Source of the DNA: Hemerocallis citrina
Taxonomy: Eukaryota > Streptophyta > Magnoliopsida > Asparagales > Asphodelaceae
Reading direction: 5' to 3'
NCBI GenBank assembly: GCA_017893485.1
Contig: CM030368.1
Coordinates: 107,329,549 to 107,393,548, forward strand
Length of the DNA: 64,000 nucleotides
Position numbers and translations under genes: made by a program. The notes beneath the pieces were generated by a model that was not told the DNA's origin, made no database searches, and was given only the letters and a program-made list of their open reading frames with translations. Numbering within the stretch: position 1 is the stretch's first letter; every line of letters starts with the position of its first letter. This document shows, piece after piece, positions 2,761 through 56,617 of the stretch.

Positions 2761-5612
2761 AATATTTTAAAATGAAATAATGTAAAACATAATATCCAAC
2801 ATCAGGGATCAAAACAAACTTCGGGTCAACAAAGCCCATATACAAAGTACAATAACGATAACAATGTCCAAAGGAAAAATACCATAAAAGATAATTCAAG
2901 CAGTCTATTTTTACGCTCCATCCTCTAAAATTGTTGCTCACCAAGTCCTTCTTGTATTACTCATTCGGTACGTGTAAACTCGTGATCTAAAAATAGAGAA
3001 ATAATGTCCGTTAGAGCAAGTCATGGGCGGCAAGAAGCGGGAAACAGAGAACAAAAGAAAGCATGGTAAATCAAGATAAAGGAATGGATCAAAGTCAAGA
3101 ACAAAAAAAAAAGATTGGTAATAAATGTCAAGGGTTTATATTCAATTATGCAATAATCACTAGTTACAATTCATGATCAATAACGATGACAATAACAGGA
3201 TCGAGCATACAATGTTGATTTGGGGTTATTATTCATTTTATTAGCCTATAAATTGCACGTAGTATTGTGTCCCATACCACAGGTTTGGTGCATGCAAAGA
3301 GTGATCGTTTAGAATGTGATGGTGAACTCAACAGATCATGTACTCGAATAACACGATAACATGATAACATGATTAACAATCGATACTCCACGTTCCATGA
3401 CAATAAACATGTAAACACAAAAAGCCCTACTGAGTACAGTCTCCGATTGTTCACTACCAAGTCAACCCATAATATCCCGACTTGTTAATATATCATATAT
3501 GAGCATGCAAGAAGATGTCAACGTTGTGTAATGCAAGGAGTGACTAATTCTACTCATTACATGCAAGGCAAAAAGCATTTATACTAAATCAATGCAAATC
3601 ATACAATCTGGATAGCAGGATGTTACTGTACAAAAACAGGTATTCCCGCTGCTATGGAAGGAGAATATGGATCCGTCAGAAGTTCTAGAAACTAGACTCT
3701 CTGCCGGTTCCATCGTATATACATAAGACATATAAAAATCACAGAAACCACGTTCAAATTCTTATTCTTTACAGATTTTATGTTCAGACAGCAGGTTATA
3801 AATTATGTTCACATATACATATCGGTTCTGAAACTTATCAATTAATTTCAAAAAAAAATTGGGGTGATTAGTACGCATGTCTAGTCTTAGCCAAATTAAT
3901 TTAACATTTTAATTTTACTGTTAATATGTTCTTTTTATTAATAAATCAGGGTGATACACATATAATTACTAATCTGGAAATCGAGACCTAGCAGTACTAA
4001 AAGTCATATATCTTATAACTCAGAATTCAAATCCGTCGAATGTTCTAGAAAGTAGACTCACAGAGGTACAATTCATGTTTACAAAGTTCATTCAAATTAA
4101 TAGAGAAACAGGTTTGAAAGTTTAATACAAAAAGAGGTAGACAGCAGGCCAGAAAATAAATTAACATGATACACAAGCATGCAATCTTATGGTAATTAAT
4201 TAACAAAAGTTCTATTTAGTTATTAGAATGCAATTTCAATATTAACGAGACATTTTTACAATCATGGAAATTAATTCATAGAAATCATATTCAATCGAAA
4301 ACATTCCAATCATCAATCAATTCTATAGCATGGATCTAATTGTTTTCATGTATCATGAGCATATGCAATGTGCAATAGTGACTAGGGTTTGAATCAAAGA
4401 TAATGGCACGAAAAGAGATTTATCATCTGGTTTCGCTGATGAATCTATGATAAACTCTTGAACAAATATCAACAAATACAGATATGAATATTGGGATATG
4501 AGCTACTTGCAGGAATTAATGAAAATTCTTGAACGCGAATAACAAAAGGGTTCAAGAAGACTTGCCTTTATATGATTAGTCCGAATATAATAGAATAAAA
4601 GGATTAGGATCCCGACGGCGACAGTACATGTGCAAGCTACTATGGCCAACACACATGCAAAGCACATAATAGCAATCACAGTAAAAGCTCCAAATATCAA
4701 CCTCAGCCAATCACAGACAACAGCAACTTTGGTGAAGCAACACAATAGCCAAAGCATCAACTAGCAATGGCAATAGCAGCGATGTTGTCTGCGGCGGTGC
4801 AGTGGTGATCGACGGCAGCGAAAGGGACCTGCATGGTGGTGCAGTCGACTGTGGACTGCAGTGTACGAGGCTTCAGCAGTCGACAGCACAGGGGATGAGG
4901 GCGATGGCGGTGTGCAGTGGTCGGGATGATGAAGAAGAATGCGATGACAGGGTGGTGGTGCACGAGGTTGGATGCAGGCGGTGAAGACGAGGAGAGGGTG
5001 ATGGGATGGTGGAGCTCGACGGTCGATGGGTCGCGATGGGTGCAAGGGCGAGGATGGAGGGAAGTCAATGGGGATGGGGCATCGACGAGGTGGATGAAGG
5101 GTGATGAGAAGGGTTCCGAAGTCAACCAGGGGAGAGAAGAGAGACGGGGTGGAGGAGATGGTGAAGTTGAAGAGGGGGGGTTGCGGCTGTAGGGTTAGGA
5201 GAGATGATTAGGTGATAGTCATTAGGGTTAGGCTAATGGTAAATATATAGGATTAGAGTTAGGGTTAAGTGGTGGGTCTGTGGGTTTTTGGATAATGGGT
5301 ATATTGTCAAAATTCAATAGGAATGGGTATTGGGTTTTGGGATTAAAATTCAGTAGGGGAAGAGAACAAGTAAATAGATAAGGATTTATAATAAGATTAA
5401 ATTGGGGATATCAATATGCAAAAATTTGATTATGATGAACAACAAAAATTTCAGCCGAAAAATTAAACAGACTGGGAGACAAAAATAGAGTTAGAAGCAA
5501 ATAATAAATTGTATTATTAGATAATCAAATTACAAGGGCTTAGAAGCGACGATGAAGAAAACAATAAATAATAATACTAAGAAAAATACAATAACTGAAA
5601 ACAGGAGTTACA
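2760..5612 (-). repeat. truncated gypsy LTR (copy H), minus sense
   Basis: The right edge GAAAACAGGAGTTACA (ends 5612) matches the TTACA edge of the LTRs at 11309, 43134 and 50849. Family landmarks follow in order: the TTAGAGCAAGTCATGG segment near 3010, the GGATCCGTC...TTCTAGAAA...AGACT block near 3670, a GC-rich block at 4780-5190, and a TATA/telo-box promoter near 5241. The TGTCA edge is missing. Similarity to A's LTR becomes recognisable only from about 2760-2800. It is probably an old solo or truncated LTR. Reading frames in the GC-rich block look non-genic. Confidence 0.7.
5213..5268 (-). promoter_or_regulatory. LTR H promoter module: TATA box with flanking telo-boxes
   Basis: On the minus strand a CTATATATTT box (5241-5250) sits between AACCCTAA-type telo-box motifs at 5222-5230 and 5259-5266. 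The same arrangement occurs in the other LTRs of this family. A transcription start is expected roughly 30 bases downstream on the minus strand. Confidence 0.5.
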
Positions 5613-43383: not shown

Positions 43384-43439
43384 GAATCCTGGGACCTGTA
43401 GGTTATGGGTCAACCACGTTTCCGTTACGCTACTCTGAT
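43384..43439 (-). pseudogene. tRNA-Met(initiator)-like 5' fragment in element A
   Basis: On the minus strand it starts ATCAGAGTAGCG and ends CAGGTCCCAGGATTC. It follows the plant initiator tRNA-Met from base 1 through the D arm, the anticodon arm (CCATAACC with CAT anticodon) and the 5' T-stem. About ten changes separate it from the tRNA, more than in the B copies. The T-loop, 3' T-stem and 3' acceptor strand are absent, so it cannot make a tRNA. Confidence 0.75.
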
Positions 43440-46202: not shown

Positions 46203-46905
46203 GCGCCAAAACTCACACTTGCTCAGCTTCCCATAGAGCTTATGCTCTCTCATAGTCTGCAGAACCACTCTAAGATGCTCAGCATGATCTTCCCGATTCT
46301 TAGAATACACCAAAATATCATCGATAAAGACCACCACGAACTTATCCAAATACTGCGAGAACACCCGGTTCATAAGACTCATGAACACAGCCGGCGTGTT
46401 AGTAACTCCGAACGGCATCACGAGATACTCATAGTGCCCGTATCTAGTCCTAAAAGCAGCCTTCGGTACGTCTGCAGCCTTCACCTTAACTTGGTGATAT
46501 CCAGAACGAAGATCCAACTTTGAGAAAACAGAAGCCCCACTCAGCTGATCAAACAAATCATCAATCCTGGGCAACGGATACCGATTCTTCACCGTAACTC
46601 TGTTCAGCTCTCGGTAATCCATGCACATCCGACGATTACCATCCTTCTTATCAACAAAAAGGACCGAAGCACCCCATGGCGAAAAACTAGGTCTGATGAA
46701 ACCCAAATCAAGCAACTCCTGAATCTGCACCGTAAGCTCTGCCAGCTCAACTGGTGCCATCCTGTAGGGCGCCTTCGATATCGGTTCTGGTCCAGGATGA
46801 ACATCAATACCAAATTCTACATCCCTATCAGGGGGTAAGCCAGGCAATTCATCTGGAAAAACATCCAAGAAATTCCGCACTACGAGAGTATCACCCAGCT
46901 GTTCG
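46203..46905 (-). pseudogene. pol: complex B internal region 1: N-terminal half of RT
   Basis: The open frame 46967-46161 begins in the leader, enters RT at [20 protein letters not shown], and contains [40 protein letters not shown] and the catalytic [15 protein letters not shown]. It ends at [11 protein letters not shown], where A's LTR takes over and gives an unrelated tail ([14 protein letters not shown]). The RT palm is intact, but the thumb, RNase H and integrase are cut off. Unlike region 2, there is no frameshift at DELPGLPP. Confidence 0.88.
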
Positions 46906-46970
46906 GTTGCGCCTCTTATAGTTGAGATGGAGGAATCCAAAACAATGCAAGGAAGGAGAAACAACAAAAG

Positions 46971-47025
46971 GATCCTGGGACCTGTGGGTTATGGACCCAC
47001 CACGCTTCCGCTGTGCCACTCTGAT
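46971..47025 (-). pseudogene. tRNA-Met(initiator)-like 5' fragment, complex B copy 1
   Basis: A 55-base sense match on the minus strand: ATCAGAGTGGCACAGCGG ... GTGGGTCCATAACCCAC ... AGGTCCCAGGATC. It comprises acceptor 5' strand, D arm with A-box, complete anticodon arm with CAT, variable loop and the start of the T arm. Against the plant initiator tRNA as I recall it, two bases differ. The B-box and 3' half are missing and CTTTTG follows, so it is neither a full tRNA nor a Pol III gene. Confidence 0.85.
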
Positions 47026-47059
47026 CGGGGAAGACTCCAATAGCATCCAGCGATGCCAA

Positions 47060-47117
47060 CCGACGAACCAAGCAGAAAGAAAGGAATGGACGACACCAGA
47101 ATCAAGGAATATGGGTA
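47060..47117 (-). pseudogene. protease active-site remnant, complex B copy 1
   Basis: In sense the bases encode IFLDSGVVHSFLSAWFVG. This aligns with LFDYGATHSFVSSRFVA of element F at both protein and DNA level; D-S-G is intact. It lies within a 79-codon frame (47130-46891) that runs on through the tRNA-like segment. Confidence 0.6.
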
Positions 47118-47364
47118 TGAAAGAATGCATTCATACCCCAGAAGAAATCAACAAAGAGGACGACGGAAAAAGACAGAAGAAGCAAGGAATCAAGAGAAAT
47201 GAATAAGAAGGGATCAAGATGGATGGAATAAGACTAGTATCCAGATCTGAGTTGGTAATAATTGATTCATTTATGCATGTATGGTTGGTGAAGTGTTGTG
47301 CAGATCCCAGTTAGAGCCAAGCTTGTCTAGTATATTAGTTGCCTAATACATTAGCCAAACCTGA

Positions 47365-47377
47365 GGCTCTGATACCA
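47365..47377 (-). other. primer-binding site, complex B internal region 1
   Basis: In sense TGGTATCAGAGCC, ten bases inside the LTR edge at 47388; perfect to the initiator tRNA-Met 3' end. Confidence 0.9.
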
Positions 47378-48295
47378 CAGAAAACCCTGTCACGCCCCGC
47401 TTCCCAAAAATACAGAATACGAGTGCGTAACAAAAGCCCAGCGAATGATTATAATCATCCTTAAGCTGTTTCAAGAAATCTTTACAACATATCACAAAGT
47501 TTAACAGAGTTGGAAGCAAAAGTGGAACCAACATGCACCATCGAATTAAATTTACCAACAGAAATTACTTGAAATCAAATACCATGTTCTCAAATAAACA
47601 GAGTCTGGAAAAACAAATATCTTGGGTCACATTGCCCAAGTACAAAATAATAACCAAGTCTCAAAACTCGAGAATACTACAAGTCTCACAAATACAATAT
47701 AATGTTCTAGCATGAAACATAAATAATAATAATAATCTAGAAGCAACTACTACTGCAAGTCTCCAGCATCACCTTGAACCTGTTCGCCATAATCTGCAAA
47801 TCATAGAATGCAGGAAAGGAGAAAGAGAAAACACAAGTACCTGTCAATGGCAAGTCCGGGTCACAAAATAGAGTAGGATACAAGCACATGGAATGGGATA
47901 ATTAACTAGCACATGCTATAGGTATGAAGTCAACTTAGACAAACTAGCAAGGTAAAAGTGTCAAAGGTCACGACATAAATCATGTATCCTATAAACCTGC
48001 ATCAAGTGTCAAGTGTCGTGTAAACTTGTATCAGGTATCATGTTTCATGTAGTTCATGTCTCATACATCATGTCTCATGTATCATGTAGTCAAGTATCTA
48101 GCAAGCAGGTTTCATGTTCAAGTATCTTATTCAAGTATCATGTTCGAGTATTAAGTTCAAGTCTTGTGTGGTTACTATCTAGGTAGCACGACATGCAACC
48201 CATTCTACATGGTTGCTATAACACAGCAGTTTCACTTTAGATTTTATAGAGGACCATGCAGGGCAGTATACTCAGGTACAAGCTCCAAGTATCAT

Positions 48296-48460
48296 GTAAA
48301 CAAGCTCCAACCCCAAACACACCAAATATCATGTAAACAAGCTCCAACCCCAAACACACCAAATATCATGTAACGAGCTCCAACCCCAAACACACCAAAT
48401 ATCATGTAACGAGCTCCAACCCCAAACACACCAAATATCATGTAAACAAGCTCCAATATA
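48296..48460 (-). repeat. 36-base minisatellite, four units, in LTR B (left)
   Basis: The unit core is CTCCAACCCCAAACACACC followed by AAATATCATGTAA. Two units have AACAAG before CTCC and two have CGAG. The right LTR has three units (55247-55365). The array follows the CAAGTATC-rich segment. Confidence 0.9.
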
Positions 48461-50393
48461 CCCACTACTACACATTTCTGCACTATCCACTACTAGATCT
48501 GTCCCATATACCCCGGCTTGATCACTTTTAGTTATTAATGTCCAACATGCATGAATACGTGTAAACTAGTGTCAAATAAGCATTGTGGGATCAGGTACAA
48601 GTTCAGGTTATCAAATCAGCATGCAAGGGTATTATAGGTTCACATATACGAGCAAAATATACAAGATTCATAATCAGGACAGCAGGACTATACAGCACTA
48701 AATTAGCAATTCCAAGAACTACAGACATGCAAATCATGATCCTTCAAATGATCTGGAATCTAGACATCCACACGCTTGTAACGGGTATAATAAAGACCTA
48801 TACTAGTACACAACATTTCAGTTTAAAAGTCAATTCAACACAGGTTTACGGTACAGCTAGAAAACAGGGGAATGACTTCCAACACATATAAAAAGCATGA
48901 AAATTCATCAAATAAATCCATAAAAATTCTGGGGTAATCCCCTACATATGTGGACTCAAAATAATAATTTTCATAATTTTCCATAAAGTATAGATATGTT
49001 AACAAAATGAAAAGTAACACAAAACATGGTTTTGATGGACCTGGAATTTCTCAACACTGCTGTACAAAATCAAGCATATCTTGCAAACAGTGCATTGAAA
49101 ATCACTTCCGCCAAAACGGGGTGAAAGTAGATAAAATTCTCCAACTTTCATATCTCACATAATATTTCCATACAGTAAATAAAAATAGGGTGAACACAGC
49201 ATTCAACTTAGAGCAACACGTAGTTTATAGCAAAAGTGCATTATAGAAAAGGGTATAAGACATCGCTCAAAACTTATCTTTAAAATACCACATAAATCTG
49301 GGAACTACCTAATATCATGGAAAAACACTGGGCAAAGTATTATGGCATGGTATCATGTATAACTTGGATCTTGAAAATAAATAGATGATAAAATCTACCC
49401 CGAACTGAATCTGGAAACTACCGATATGCAGTCACTAAAATAATCATAACTAATTTGTACGAACTCCAAACTGGATGAAACCAGTGGGGTCAGAAAATAA
49501 GTTCAATCCTCTACAATTTACTCAGAAATGTCCATGTTGATATTCGGACTCTAACTCAGGTAAAAACAGCAATCAATTCAGTACAGCCCGAATTTCCAGA
49601 TTTCACAACTAAACTTCAAAACGTCATAACTTCTACAAAAATGAACGAAACTCATCCAAATTTGAAACGCAGCCTAACCATTGTCTAAATATCATGTCTA
49701 AGGGTTTCTAACATGTCAAAACCTAATATTTTCATATGGGCAATCAATCAAACATGGTTCATGTGCTATTTGACCTATGCGATCAAAATCGCGCTTTGGG
49801 TGAAACCTACGGCATAACCTTATCAAAATTCATATTCTAAGTCATCTATGGCCTGTTTTGAACAATAGAGACGAAACCCACAAATAAAAATCTAATCTTT
49901 GGCCGTCTCTAGTCTCAAACTACCCTATATGTGAACTTTCGACTTGTATCAACCTAAGAAAATTATGTACAAGTTACTTGCCTCTTTTTGACGATTAACG
50001 TGACCAAACGCAGCCAAGCAATGAAACCCACGAGCGAGAGGCCTTTCCACGTGATTCCACGTGAACCCACGAGCCGAAACGCGCCTATGATCGACTCCTT
50101 GATGCACGAACTCAAAGTGGGCGATACCCACTTCTCCAAATCGGCGAAGAGAGGTGTAGGGGCTGTTTTGAGATGGATGGGTGTTGTTTTGGTGAAGGGC
50201 CGACCACAAGGAGCGCAAGGAAAAGAAGGGTTTTGTAGTACGGAGTTGTAGTATGGTGGAGGGATTTGATTGTGGTGATCGGCAATGGCTTGGGAAAGGA
50301 AAGAGAGGGTCGGCCTGGGGTATAATATGCAGGCCGGGAGAGAATGAGAAGGAGGGGAGGCCGGTTGGAATAGGAGAGGGTAAGAGAGTAAAT

Positions 50394-50430
50394 TAGGGTT
50401 AGGGATTAATTAGTGTTAGGGGTATATATA
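50394..50430 (-). promoter_or_regulatory. LTR B promoter module
   Basis: In sense CCCTATATATACCCC (50421-50433) with CCCTAACCCTAA downstream (50394-50405). Absent from the right LTR because of its internal deletion. Confidence 0.6.
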
Positions 50431-50849
50431 GGGGATCAAATGTGGGTTAATGGGTAGTGGATATCAATAGGATTAAATGGATGTACAATTGGGTAATGGA
50501 TATTGGGTAGATTTCAAATGGGCATACAAGATGCAATGAACCCTATGGCTCCTAACAATCTCCTTAAGGGCCAAAAATCTCAAATTGACCAAAACTCCTC
50601 TAAAAGTCCACCATGACCCAAAAATAATATTTAAACATGAACAGGACCAAGAAAATGAGAAAAATATCTCAAAATGGCGAAAAAACGGACGATCGGTGCA
50701 CAAACAGCACACGGAGATCAAAATGCCAGAAAAATAATATAAAATAAAAATAATTAAATATATTGTTCCGAAAAATACAATGGAATATAATAATCCACAA
50801 AAGAAAAAAATATTCTCAAAAATACCAAAAGTGAAAAACAGAGGTTACA

Positions 50850-50862
50850 ATCCTACCTCCCT
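50850..50862 (-). other. polypurine tract, complex B
   Basis: In sense GGGAGGTAGGAT next to the TGTAACC edge. Confidence 0.8.
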
Positions 50863-50949
50863 ACAAGAAAATTTCGTCCTCGAAATTAAAAAGAAAGGTA
50901 CATAGGATAACCCCAAGAAAAATCAAAACCACCAAAACAAAACAACCAA

Positions 50950-51643
50950 CTACTCAAACAAGTGAGGAAACTTCTGCTGAATTTCCTCCTCCAACTCCCA
51001 TGTCGACTCACCAGGCGAGTGAGGATTCCAAGCGACACGGACCAACTTAATGACCTTGTTCTTAAGCACTTTCTCCCGCCGATCCACAATAGCAACAGGC
51101 AGAATCTCACAAGTCAAATCCGGCCGTACGGTCAACTCTGAATAGTCGATCACGTGGCTCTCATCTCGGATATACCTCCTGAGTTGTGAGACATGGAAAA
51201 CATCGTGCACTCCCGATAAAGCTGGCGGCAATGCGAGACGATAGGCCACCTTGCCTACTCGCTCCAAGATCTCAAACGGTCCAATAAATCTTGGGCTAAG
51301 CTTGCCCCCGCCACCGAACCGAATGACACCGCGGCACGGCGATACCTTGAGAAAAACATGGTCACCAACTGCGAACTCCAACGCCCTGCGATGAACATCA
51401 GCCCACCGCCTCTGCCTGTCCTGAGCTGCCTGCAAGTGCTTCCTGATCTGAACCACTGCCTCCACTGTCTTGGTGATCAACTCTGGACCCAACAACTGCC
51501 TCTCGCCAACATCATCCCAACAAACTGGCGATCTACACTTCCGCCCATAGAGTGCCTCAAACAGAGCAGCTTTAATACTCGCCTGAAAGCTATTATTGTA
51601 CGAGAACTCCACAAGATGCAAGTGATCCTCCCAAGACCCACCA
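50950..51643 (-). pseudogene. pol: complex B integrase C-terminal half and chromodomain-like tail
   Basis: The frame runs from just after a stop (ML*FGGSW, TAG for CAG, 51646) to the natural end. It contains HLVEFSYNNSFQASIKAALF, ALYGRKCRSPVCWDDVGERQ, the GPF module GKLSPRFIGPFEILERVG, PPALSGVHDVFHVSQLRRYI, then EILPVAIVDRREKVLKNKVI and STWELEEEIQQKFPHLFE. This is the most complete C-terminal region in the window and fits Tekay-type chromoviruses. It is separated from the catalytic core by a stop. Confidence 0.9.
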
Positions 51644-51645
51644 AA

Positions 51646-52579
51646 CTAAAGCATGCAGGACCTCAACATGTCCTCGAGAATCTGAATAGTCCGCTCTGAC
51701 TGTCCATCAGTCTGGGGATGAAAAGCTGTACTGTACTTTAATTTGCTCCCCAAACATCTCTGAAGACTCTCCCAAAACTGAGATCTGAATCTCGTATCCC
51801 TATCAGATACAATGCTAACTGGGACCCCATGAAGCCTAACAATCTCTTGCATATACCTCTCAGCAAGGCTCTCAGTAGATTGACCGACACGAAAAAGGAA
51901 TGAAGTGAGCACTCTTCGTCAAACGGTCCACAATCACCCAAATAGCATTATGACCCTTCGGACTCCTTGGCAAAGCGGTCACAAAATCCATGGTGATGTG
52001 TTCCCACTTCCACTCTGGAATAGGAAGCGATTGAAGAAGTCCAGCGATCCTCTGATGCTCTGCCTTAACCTGCTGGCAGACTAAACACTGAGCAACATAC
52101 TGAGCCACAGCCCTCTTCATACCTTGCCACCAGAAATGAAGCTTCAAATCCCGATACATCTTTGTACCGCCAGGATGGATAGAATACGAAGACTGGTGAG
52201 CTTCTTTAAGTAACCTCTGACGAGCTTCACCCTCCGGGACACATAACCGGGAACCAAAACGAAGGGAGCCATCTGCATGAATAACTATGTCCGTCCTAGA
52301 CCCAGACTCAACCTCAGCCCGAAACTTCTGCAACTGTGCATCACTAGCCTGCGCCTCCTTAATCTGCTCGACAAGAGACGACTACAACTGGAGCGCCAAA
52401 CAACTCCGACCAGAACTCGGCAACACTATCTCAAGCTCTAACCTCCTCATCTGCTCAATGAGATCTCTCTGCTGAGTAAGAAATGAAACTGCTGGTCTCC
52501 TACTCAAAGCATCAGGCACCAAGTTTACTTTACCAAGATGGTATTGCAAACTGATGTCATACTCGGCCATAAGTTCCAA
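51646..52579 (-). pseudogene. pol: complex B integrase zinc-binding domain and core, frameshifted
   Basis: 52579-52382 holds the RNase H end ([29 protein letters not shown]) and linker. 52333-51872 has the HHCC motif in HQSSYSIHPGGTKMYRDLKL and YVAQCLVCQQVKAEHQ, then TMDFVTALPRSPKGHNAIWV. A frameshift near 51890 follows KSAHFIPF. The core resumes as [20 protein letters not shown] and [20 protein letters not shown], so all three DDE residues are present, but in two frames. Confidence 0.88.
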
Positions 52580-52588
52580 CCAACGCCT

Positions 52589-53812
52589 TTACCTCATGTT
52601 TAACTCCTTCTGGGTGAAGACGTACTTGAGACTTTTGTGGTCTGTAAAGATCTCCACTCGGTCTCCAAGCAAATAATGTCTCCACAGCTTCAAAGCAAAA
52701 ATCACTACCGCTAACTCAAAGTCATGAGTAGGATAGTTCTTCTCATGCGGCCTCAACTGCCTCGATGCATACGCAACAACGCGGCCCTTCTGCATAAGAA
52801 CTGCTCCAAGACCCTTACCAGAAGCATCACAGTGAACCACAAATCCGCCTGAACCATCTGGAATAGTCAACACAGGCGCTGACGTCAGTCTATCCTTCAA
52901 CTCAACGAATGCCACATTGCACTCATCCGACCAACAAAATTTCTGATCCTTCCCAGTCAATTTAGTCAAAGGTCCTGCTATCTTCGAAAAATCCTGAACG
53001 AACTTTCGATAATAGCTAGCCAAACCCAGAAAACTCCTGACTTCTGAAACTAACTTGGGAATAAGCCAATCCTTCACAGCGTCAATCTTGGCAGGATCCA
53101 CAGAAATACCATTGCCAGAAACAATATGCCCCAAGAAAGAAATTCTGTCGAGCCAAAACTCACACTTGCTCAGCTTCCTATAGAGCTTATGCTCTCTCAT
53201 AGTCTGCAGAACCACTCTAAGATGCTCAGCATGATCTTCCCGATTCTTAGAATACACCAAAATATCATCGATAAAGACCACCACGAACTTATCCAAATAC
53301 TGCGAGAACACCCGGTTCATAAGACTCATGAACACAACCAGCGCGTTAGTAACTCCCAACGGCATCACGAGATAGTTATAGTGCCCGTATCTAGTCCTGA
53401 AAGCAGCCTTCGGTATGTCTGCAACCTTCACCTTAACTTGGTGATATCCAGAACGAAGATCCAACTTTGAGAAAACAGAAGCCCCACTCAGCTGATCAAA
53501 CAAATCATCAATTCTGGGCAACGGATACCGATTCTTCACCGTAACTCTGTTCAGCTCTCGGTAATCCATGCACATCCGACGACTACCATCCTTCTTATCA
53601 ACAAAAAGGACCGGAGCACCCCATGGCGAAACACTAGGTCTGATGAAACCCAAATCAAGCAACTCCTGAATCTGCACCTTAAGCTCTGCCAGCTCAACTG
53701 GTGCCATCCTGTAGGGAGCCTTCAATATCGATTCTGTTCCAGGCTGAACATCAATACCAAATTCTACTTTCCTATCAGGGGGTAAGCCAGGCAAATTCAT
53801 CTGGAAAAACAT
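52589..53812 (-). pseudogene. pol: complex B reverse transcriptase and RNase H, 407-codon frame
   Basis: This is the longest pol frame in the window. It starts [20 protein letters not shown] only because one extra A near 53795 shifts DELPGLPP out of the upstream frame. It carries [60 protein letters not shown], catalytic [35 protein letters not shown], then RNase H with [40 protein letters not shown] and [19 protein letters not shown] before a stop (Q expected). RT and RNase H catalytic residues look intact. Gag and protease are absent upstream. Confidence 0.9.
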
Positions 53813-53918
53813 CCATGAAATCCCGCACTACGAAAGTATCACCCAGCTGTTCGGCTGCGCCTCTTGTAGTTAAAATGGAGGAATCCAAAACAATGCAAGG
53901 AAGGAGAAACAACAAAAG

Positions 53919-53973
53919 GATCCTGGGACCTGTGGGTTATGGACCCACCACGCTTCCGCTGCGCCACTCTGAT
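53919..53973 (-). pseudogene. tRNA-Met(initiator)-like 5' fragment, complex B copy 2
   Basis: The same 55 bases as 46971-47025 but with GGCGCAGCGG in the D arm, as in the tRNA. By my recollection of the plant initiator tRNA-Met it differs at a single base (T for C at the 3' edge of the anticodon 5' stem). The A-box is intact and the B-box truncated. It lies between the protease remnant and RT. Confidence 0.87.
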
Positions 53974-54004
53974 CGGGGAAGACTCCAATAGCATCCAGCG
54001 ATGC

Positions 54005-54067
54005 CAACCGACGAACCAAGCAGAAAGAAAGGAATGGACGACACCAGAATCAAGGAATATGGGTATG
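54005..54067 (-). pseudogene. protease active-site remnant, complex B copy 2
   Basis: Identical to 47060-47117: encodes FLDSGVVHSFLSAWFVG in the frame 54078-53839. Confidence 0.6.
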
Positions 54068-54312
54068 AAAGAATGCATTCATACCCCAGAAGAAATCAAC
54101 AAAGAGGACGACGGAAAAAGACAGAAGAAGCAAGGAATCAAGAGAAATGAATAAGAAGGGATCAAGATGGATGGAATAAGACTAGTATCCAGATCTGAGT
54201 TGGTAATAATTGATTCATTTATGCATGTATGGTTGGTGAAGTGTTGTGCAGATCCCAGTTAGAGCCAAGCTTGTCTAGTATATTAGTTGCCTAATACATT
54301 AGCCAAACCTGA

Positions 54313-54325
54313 GGCTCTGATACCA
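54313..54325 (-). other. primer-binding site, complex B internal region 2
   Basis: TGGTATCAGAGCC in sense, ten bases inside the LTR edge at 54336. Confidence 0.9.
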
Positions 54326-54335
54326 CAGAAAACCC

Positions 54336-56617
54336 TGTCACGCCCCGCTTCCCAAAAATACAGAATACGAGTGCGTAACAAAAGCCCAGCGAATGATTAT
54401 AATCATCCTTAAGCTGTTTCAAGAAATCTTTACAACATATCACAAAGTTTAACAGAGTTGGAAGCAAAAGTGGAACCAACATGCAACATCGAATTAAATT
54501 TACCAACAGAAATTACTTGAAATCAAATACCATGTTCTCAAATAAACAGAGTCTGGAAAAACAAATATCTTGGGTCACATCGCCCAAGTACAAAATAATA
54601 ACCAAGTCTCAAAACTCGAGAATACTACAAGTCTCACAAATACAATATAATGCTCTAGCATGAAACATAAATAATAATAATAATCTAGAAGCAACTACTA
54701 CTGCAAGTCTCCAGCATCACCTTGAACCTGTTCGCCATAATCTGCAAATCATAGAATGCAGGAAAGGAGAAAGAGAAAACACAAGTACCTGTCAATGGCA
54801 AGTCCGGGTCACAAAATAGAGTAGGATACAAGCACATGGAATGGGATAATTAACTAGCACATGCTATAGGTATGAAGTCAACTTAGACAAACTAGCAAGG
54901 TAAAAGTGTCAAAGGTCACGACATAAATCATGTATCCTATAAACCTGCATCAAGTGTCAAGTGTCGTGTAAACTTGTATCAGGTATCATGTTTCATGTAG
55001 TTCATGTCTCATACATCATGTCTCATGTATCATGTAGTCAAGTATCTAGCAAGCAGGTTTCATGTTCAAGTATCTTATTCAAGTATCATGTTCGAGTATT
55101 AAGTTCAAGTCTTGTGTGGTTACTATCTAGGTAGCACGACATGCAACCCATTCTACATGGTTGCTATAACACAGCAGTTTCGCTTTAGATTTTATAGGGG
55201 ACCATGCAGGGCAGTATACTCAGGTACAAGCTCCAAGTATCATGTAAACAAGCTCCAACCCCAAACACACCAAATATCATGTAAACAAGCTCCAACCCCA
55301 AACACACCAAATATCATGTAACGAGCTCCAACCCCAAACACACCAAATATCATGTAAACAAGCTCCAAACCAAACCAGGTTCTTCCGAGTACACATTTCT
55401 GCACTATCCACTACTAGATCTGTCCCATATACCCCGGCTTGATCACTTTTAGTTATTAATGTCCAACATGCATGAATACGTGTAAACTAGTGTCAAATAA
55501 GCATTGTGGGATCAGGTACAAGTTCAGGTTATCAAATCAGCGTGCAAGGGTATTATAGGTTCACATATACGAGCAAAATATACAAGATTCATAATCAGGA
55601 CAGCAGGACTATACAGCACTAAATCAGCGATTCCAAGCACTACAGACATGCAAATCATGATCCTTCAAAGGATCTGGAATCTAGACATCCACACGCTTCT
55701 AATGAGTATAATAAAGACCTATACTAGTTCACAACATTTCAGTTTAAAAGTCAATTCAACACAAATTTACGGTACAGCCAGAAAACAGGGGAATGACTTC
55801 CAACACATATAAAAAGCATGAAAATTCATCAAATAAATCCATAAAATTCTGGGGTAATCCCCTACATATGTGGACTCAAAATAATAATTTTCATAATTTT
55901 CAGAAAGTATAGATATGTTAACAAAAAATGAAAAGTAACACAAAACATGGTTTTGATGGACCTGGAATTTCTCAACACTGCTGTACAAAATCAAGCATAT
56001 CTTGCAAACAGTGAATTAAAAATCACTTCCGCCAAAATGGGGTGAAAGTAGATAAAATTCTCAAACTTTCATATCTCACATAATATTTCCATACAGTAAA
56101 TAAAAATAGGGTGAACACAGCATTCAACATAGAGCAACACGCAGTTTACAGCAAAAGTGCATTATAGAAAAGGGTATAAGACATCGCTCAAAACTTATCT
56201 TTAAAATACCACATAAATCTGAAAACTACCTAACATCATGGGGAAACACTGGGCAAAGTATCATGGCATGGTATCATGTATAACTTGGATCTTGAAAATA
56301 AATAGATGATAAAATCTACCCCGAACTGAATCTGGAAACTACCGATATGCAGTCACTAAAATAATCATAACTAATTCATACGAAATCCAAAAATAATATT
56401 TAAACATGAACGGGACCAAGAAAATGAGAAAAATATCTCAAAATGGCGAAAAACGGACGATCGGCGCACAAACAGCACACGGAGATCAAAATGCCAGAAA
56501 AATAATATAAAATAAAAATAATTAAATATATTGTTCCGAAAAAAACAATGGAATATAATAATCCACAAAAGAAAAAAATATTCTCAAAAATACCAAAAGT
56601 GAAAAACAGAGGTTACA
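54336..56617 (-). repeat. complex B LTR, right copy, with internal deletion
   Basis: TGTCACGCCCCGC to CAGAGGTTACA, only 2.28 kb. A deletion of about 1.15 kb at 56385 joins the CGAAATCC segment (like 49466) to AAAAATAATATTTAAACATG (like 50614), removing the promoter and GC-rich block. Three 36-base minisatellite units (55247-55365) instead of four. The following bases GGGTG start A's LTR again. Confidence 0.92.

Follow-up and report, generated by a model that had tools for sequence, protein, structure and literature searches.

An LTR retrotransposon of Hemerocallis citrina carries, in its internal region, a sense copy of nucleotides (nt) 1-55 of initiator tRNA-Met (tRNA-iMet), the same tRNA to whose 3' end its primer-binding site (PBS) is complementary. 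The sequence suggests an element that imitates its own primer.

The tRNA segment and its elements in the window

The window, as the whole stretch of 64,000 nucleotides analysed is called here, contains three copies of the segment. The best preserved of these (copy B), on the minus strand at 53973-53919, reads ATCAGAGTGGCGCAGCGGAAGCGTGGTGGGTCCATAACCCACAGGTCCCAGGATC and differs from nt 1-55 of the host initiator tRNA-Met at a single position, C31 to T; the host reference is a 71-nt tRNA-iMet found exactly in 12 of the 20 loci that were fetched with the tRNA 3' part, three more of which (L062, L065 and L073) are one base off and stand in a gene-like setting. The comparison with host genes bears out the preliminary description, which had read this strand as initiator tRNA-Met from base 1 into the T-stem with one base different, and the CAT anticodon and perfect 5-bp anticodon stem that it named are both there, within complete D arm and anticodon arm sequences. 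Box B, the 3' half of the T arm and the 3' strand of the acceptor stem are missing from copy B: after nt 55 the host tRNA goes on as GAAACCTGGCTCTGAT and the element has a pyrimidine-rich tail instead. The features to which the text refers are as follows, all on the minus strand.

53919..53973, minus: copy B, sense tRNA-iMet nt 1-55 with C31T (sequence, Infernal, BLAST, host genes)
53888..53915, minus: pyrimidine-rich tail, conserved with the tRNA segment in most subfamilies (locus comparisons)
54313..54325, minus: PBS of copy B, TGGTATCAGAGCC, complement of the tRNA-iMet 3' end, 352 nt upstream of the segment
54336..56617, minus: 5' LTR of element B, on its upstream side, TG...CA; the partner LTR is about 1.2 kb longer
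52589..53812, minus: open frame for reverse transcriptase (RT) and RNase H, downstream of the segment (RVT_1, RT_RNaseH_2, RT_RNaseH)
50950..52333, minus: integrase remnants (H2C2, SH3_Tf2-1, chromodomain below cut-off)
50850..50862, minus: candidate polypurine tract before the downstream LTR (by reading)
47388..50849, minus: LTR shared in the tandem, downstream LTR for B and upstream LTR for A
47365..47377, minus: PBS of copy A
46971..47025, minus: copy A, the same segment in a second element (BLAST, 98.2% to copy B)
43386..43439, minus: third copy of the segment, worn (BLAST, 85%, E 1.5e-7)

Copy B is not a tRNA gene. ARAGORN called no tRNA in the window or in the further loci L018 and L055, and Rfam at its gathering threshold gave no match in any of the three; for the window, the lack of a gene call is explained by the absence of box B and of the 3' third. 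The covariance model, whose silence was to have counted against the tRNA identity according to the preliminary description, does match the segment (RF00005 at 53973-53910), but at 17.4 bits and an E value of 0.45 it stays below the gathering cut-off of 29; that objection therefore holds in part, and it is an unfair test for a fragment.

The region 46205-56617 is a tandem of the form LTR-internal-LTR-internal, in which element A follows element B. Element B may belong to the Tekay/Del clade; its chromodomain scores 21 bits against a cut-off of 25.1. The LTRs contain a 36-37-bp tandem repeat (48263-48492 and 55211-55404), the copy number of which differs between the two. The segment had been said to have the same polarity as the genomic RNA, and this proved correct, as it is sense and the PBS for the same tRNA lies upstream of it in the same orientation. 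It had also been placed between a protease remnant and RT. RT indeed lies downstream, but the arrangement is not that of a standard element with the segment between these two domains; it is a leader-derived module in the place of gag and protease. This assignment follows from a related element at 19654-7868 of the window, which has gag-like open frames in that place, the first about 170 nt past the LTR, and no tRNA. The gag-like frames of this relative include a zinc-knuckle motif recognised by eye and have no Pfam match, and a protein search with its RT returned reverse transcriptases with about 43-74% identity among the matches listed, the named sources being plausibly plants.

Copies across the genome and their conservation

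The genome searched, a single one, comprises 3.78 Gb in 701 contigs. Nucleotides 1-30 of the tRNA occur with at most two mismatches at 4,994 places (2549+2445), a count that takes in real tRNA genes and some copies of a second family described below, and the reversed control pattern at none (0+0); together with the BLAST E values obtained with copy B within the window (3e-27 for itself, 7e-25 for copy A and 1.5e-7 for the third copy), this indicates that the matches are not due to chance. The 3' part of the tRNA is found at 69 places, 37 of them exact, and of 88 exact 55-mers 26 coincide in place with a match to the 3' part and 62 do not. When loci were picked by the tail alone, 19 of 20 carried the tRNA segment, and the tRNA together with about 30 nt after it is common to subfamilies that differ in their leaders and downstream parts.

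For locus comparison and PBS counting three rows were dropped (L034, a real gene; L037, of the second family; L044, the same place as L003), leaving 57 first-family loci. A PBS in the same orientation, with at most one mismatch, lies upstream of the segment in 43 of the 57 (29/30 in the first set and 14/27 in the second, whose stretches include only 1.5 kb upstream, so that its 13 misses are undecided), at a distance of 346-358, 389, 715 or 1349-1434 nt. No antisense PBS upstream and no PBS of any kind downstream was found in these 57 loci. The genome matches and the PBS count make the segment a retroelement feature genome-wide and not merely an unrelated repeat outside retroelements, and the primer site in the same orientation, for which the preliminary description proposed a count, recurs among the carriers. 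The CAT anticodon is intact in 53/57 loci and so are all five anticodon-stem pairs, also in 53/57, the 5' strand of this stem having belonged to the search pattern for 27 of them. An empty site, taken as one leader type (head B) followed by the tail within 25 nt and without the tRNA, had no exact match genome-wide, a weak test that required exact flanks; two exact patterns had no match in the collection viral_contigs, which is not plant DNA and says little. Five carriers spaced by about 3.9-5.5 kb lie within 21 kb at G000:C11:114685782-114706773 (L018-L022, L103, L104) in an apparent tandem array. In L035 and L055, about 1 kb of extra sequence, with low-complexity and microsatellite-like stretches in it, stands between leader and segment and is absent from the 350-nt leaders elsewhere.

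L055, the single carrier examined at full length, is a non-coding, LARD-like element. Its LTRs of about 3 kb are 94% identical and enclose an internal region of about 3.07 kb; the longest listed open reading frame in the 3,030 bases searched, frames running off the ends being excluded, encodes 118 amino acids of low complexity. As one example, L055 thus combines the long LTRs, long internal domain and lack of coding capacity by which LARDs are defined. Its leader type stands just before the tRNA in 18 of the 20 tail-anchored loci, as judged by eye. Element B of the window is not a LARD, as it retains remnants from RT to integrase.

The segment is conserved between subfamilies and wears normally within them. 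When subfamily A (25 loci) is compared with 18 tail-anchored loci, which had been chosen regardless of the tRNA, net divergence is 0.006 in the tRNA against 0.264-0.275 in the preceding 80 nt; the homology of the two leader types involved (head A and head B) is uncertain over their full length, which makes the leader comparison below the safer one. Within the same two groups the divergence of the tRNA (0.069 in A and 0.122 in the tail-anchored loci) is as high as that of the preceding 80 nt (0.035-0.039 and 0.094-0.112), indicating that the mutation rate is not lower in the segment. Subfamily A stands here without L018-L022, and the tail-anchored group without L082 (no tRNA) and L098 (head A).

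Among groups A-E the net divergence of nt 31-55 is below that of the leader in 10/10 pairs, on average 0.018 against 0.091; groups B-F were hand-picked by leader type (19 of the 27 set-2 loci) and contain loci chosen by an exact match to nt 1-30, so only nt 31-55 are unbiased, and the leader comparison does not include L060, one of three loci in group E, whose stretch contains no PBS. The tail lies outside the tRNA sequence and averages 0.017 in groups A-E, about equal to nt 31-55, although in pair A-C it is conserved no more strongly than the leader (0.032 against 0.031), and in group F it has diverged (net 0.085-0.129) and the tRNA has not. For the 110 nt that begin at +90, net divergence is -0.014 in pair B-C and 0.03-0.25 in the other A-E pairs. 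In a sliding-window scan, which omitted L017-L022 from group A, none of 293 windows fell below the tRNA window for A-D and C-D, a result biased by the choice on nt 1-30, and 9/396 were as low as the tRNA window or lower for A-C; L018, L020 and L022 were counted in group C, and L019 and L021 in neither group. Near-zero net divergence together with normal wear indicates that the active lineages kept the segment, either by selection or by rewriting from the primer, and conservation of the tail in A-E goes beyond what rewriting from a tRNA explains.

Individual loci differ from the host tRNA at 0-5 positions in set 1 (30 loci) and at 2-7 among the 19 tail-anchored carriers, and C>T or G>A changes at CpG account for 21/63 and 20/74 of the changes, respectively. 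Inherited variants are present in both, C31T in 15/30 set-1 loci and G10T in 7/19 tail-anchored carriers, implying that the exact sequence of the segment is not indispensable.

The idea of a folded tRNA mimic is unsupported so far. The same folding program that returns the cloverleaf for the full host tRNA gave, for 14 copies in their context, a D-stem pairing probability of at most 0.15 and mostly 0, and values from 0 to 0.99 for the anticodon stem; some minimum-energy folds pair tRNA nt 4-21 with the tail. That the tail completes a tRNA fold was considered and rejected: with the tRNA held fixed and 300 shuffles by each of two methods in 23 copies, the real tails were on average no better than shuffled ones (mean z +0.43, and +0.77 with dinucleotide shuffling), with L060 as an exception (z -3.0 and -1.8).

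Origin, a second family and competing explanations

The 5' boundary of the segment is exactly nt 1 of the tRNA, and no trace of a tRNA-gene flank precedes it; the bases before nt 1 are CACC or CCCG, and genuine genes have AACAATA or similar there. CCA is not known to be encoded in nuclear tRNA genes. An encoded CCA is found in 5/20 loci fetched by the tRNA 3' part (L063, L064, L074, L078 and L079), and a 25-nt pattern that includes CCA occurs at 27 places with at most one mismatch. Directly beside the CCA, L063 and L078 have an LTR-like end in antisense orientation, and in L064, L074 and L079 no match to the families compared was found there. L078 is a recombinant (1458-1532): the leader and segment of the first family are followed by the 3' end of the primer itself with its CCA, and then by an LTR end in antisense. 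This orientation of the LTR-like ends is the one expected if RT copies the primer; the CCA-bearing copies indicate that RT copied mature primer, and were probably left where it read on well past the stretch that usually serves as PBS. In L043 and L049, two of the 19 first-family loci shown, a 19-nt PBS corresponds to nt 57-75; as the segment takes up nt 1-55, the split between the two falls at position 58 of the tRNA, presumably the m1A58 modification site of tRNA-iMet, which would adjoin the 3' boundary of the segment. Other members differ from these two loci by a few bases just before AGGTTT, and their complementarity to the primer may be bipartite. Two origins had been offered in the preliminary description. 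Of these, template switching onto the primer is favoured by the CCA copies, the boundary at nt 1 and the 3' boundary near m1A58, and capture of a tRNA gene fares worse for lack of a gene flank. RT copying of the mature primer is the most likely source of the segment, and we infer the exact sequence of jumps.

We tentatively propose, as an explanation that falls a little short of an even chance, that in a chromovirus-like, largely non-autonomous Ty3/gypsy lineage the 5' two-thirds of primer tRNA-iMet were captured by an RT template switch and have since been retained as a cis-acting block of the leader. RT would have switched template onto the mature primer tRNA-iMet just 5' of the m1A58 block and would then have run to the tRNA 5' end, yielding a copy of nt 1-55; within the genomic-RNA leader this copy would since have been kept, together with about 30 nt more, as a cis-acting block. 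That this particular segment arose by the template switch is our inference, as is each functional step. The block may serve in packaging, in dimerisation or in tRNA mimicry, the roles named in the preliminary description. A sense copy can pair with the primer only through its acceptor and T-stem bases.

A second family, first noticed as L037 (1501-1553) and present at 337 places with at most two mismatches to a 26-nt anchor, carries another derivative of tRNA-iMet. Its segment consists of GGT, tRNA nt 1-30 and a stretch, TTTGAACCTACATTCATGATACC, that resembles the T loop, the 3' strand of the T-stem and the acceptor 3' end (alignment by eye); Rfam did not recognise it as tRNA. Its predicted fold has three arms, the first a long acceptor-like stem and the second D-like. 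Of the pair cells in 35 copies, 95.8% are standard; shifting the partner by 1-3 columns lowers this to 20-54%. The stems lie partly inside the search anchor, which leaves only the acceptor strands largely independent of the selection, and a double change was seen just once. A PBS with at most two mismatches lies upstream in 9/10 copies, at 168 or 257-262 nt, after LTR-end-like sequence. Both families may descend from one common capture. It is conceivable, at perhaps one chance in a few, that a primer became a genomic cis-element at least twice, once in the lineage with nt 1-55 split from a PBS for nt 57-75 at the m1A58 block and once in a lineage with a shortened tRNA and an extended acceptor stem, the latter known from its PBS and LTR-like end; both would lie in sense orientation past the PBS, where non-coding elements would use them to select primer or RNA.

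Retention as a cis-acting block has to be weighed against concerted rewriting, in which the segment would have no function of its own and would be reset to the host tRNA by occasional RT switches between primer and site. The recombinant in L078 is what such switches might leave, the CCA-bearing copies suggest that RT goes past its usual stop on the primer, and group F keeps the tRNA and not the tail. Yet C31T and G10T have been inherited by many copies, so rewriting is not regular; the tail too is conserved in most A-E pairs; and CCA-bearing tRNA 3' copies are rare at their 27 places. We regard concerted rewriting as unlikely, though less so than any of the explanations that follow.

A role at the DNA stage is improbable. 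What is sense in the RNA is antisense in the minus strand, where nt 1-55 could pair with the 5' part of the attached primer and aid its unfolding, its removal or strand transfer. The argument is one of geometry only, joined by the recombinant in L078 and by the fact that nt 1-30 and nt 31-55 are both kept and not the stems alone; the distance to the PBS is variable (346 to 1434 nt), however, and no precedent was found in the open-licence PMC literature searched. Capture as DNA of a tRNA gene or of the head of a SINE, later trimmed and merely carried along, is given little credence. A DNA route of tRNA sequence into retroelements is conceivable, and Kojima proposes a SINE insertion for Helenus (PMC10886601), but CACC and CCCG before nt 1 are unlike genuine gene flanks, and neutral carriage contradicts the near-zero net divergence. 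A decoy for 3' tRNA fragments is very unlikely: nt 1-7 and 48-52 would base-pair with the 3' strands of the acceptor stem and T-stem, either in the primer or in 3'-tRFs that otherwise block the PBS, as 3'-tRFs do in mouse (PMC7472051), and such complementarity follows from the tRNA fold, but conservation is not visibly confined to the pairing bases and the whole of nt 31-55 is kept. Capture of a Pol III promoter, as in Cassandra or Helenus, is disfavoured most strongly, for although the box A region is intact by reading, box B is cut (GGATCGAAACC reads GGATCCTTTTG or GGATCATATTG), the segment is internal and outside the LTRs in the window and L055, and ARAGORN and Rfam at gathering were silent in the loci named above.

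Significance and relation to known systems

To our knowledge, how plant non-coding LTR elements are chosen for packaging and priming is largely open. A primer-tRNA copy kept amid changing surroundings offers a sharply delimited candidate signal, 55 to 85 nt long and open to deletion or exchange. The copies are also a natural record of RT copying a modified primer tRNA, and fragments of this sort, present in thousands, could interfere with tRNA annotation and with the mapping of small RNAs in such genomes.

That small-RNA sequences occur in LTR elements is already known from Cassandra and Helenus, in which they lie in the LTRs and have Pol III boxes. These two were found in the open-licence PMC literature, where no description of an internal primer-tRNA copy turned up, which does not prove that none exists; the screen by Kojima covered LTR sequences and TRIMs below 1000 bp only (PMC10886601), which an internal primer-tRNA type would escape. 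Helenus (TRIMp3; Kojima 2024) is likewise a non-autonomous LTR element with tRNA-derived sequence; it has the tRNA in the LTR, conserved boxes A and B and a length below 1000 bp, and occurs in one plant species (Selaginella) (PMC10886601). In the elements described here the segment is internal, following the PBS in 43/57 loci and lying outside the LTRs in the window and L055; box B is interrupted and gone, the elements span many kb, and the tRNA is their own primer. Cassandra, with the PBS TGGTATCAGAGC, is a plant non-autonomous LTR element in which a small-RNA sequence has become fixed; there it is 5S rRNA, located in the LTR and with Pol III boxes (PMC7215508).

LARDs (Kalendar et al. 2004) resemble the non-coding carrier in their long LTRs, PBS and internal domain without protein products, and are said to specify conserved RNA secondary structure; the part of the source used here does not mention tRNA sequence for them (PMC7215508). 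Ty3 is also primed by tRNA-iMet, and tRNA 5' ends help to dimerise its initiation complex, but there palindromes of the bound tRNA are used, and a tRNA copy in the element is not mentioned in the portion of that source consulted (PMC5371799). In HIV-1, a tRNA-like element of the genomic RNA near the PBS mimics the anticodon arm of the primer tRNA (PMC8473020); here the actual primer sequence is carried. With the plant elements it can be tested whether mimicry of a tRNA close to the PBS, as known in HIV-1, arose independently in plants.
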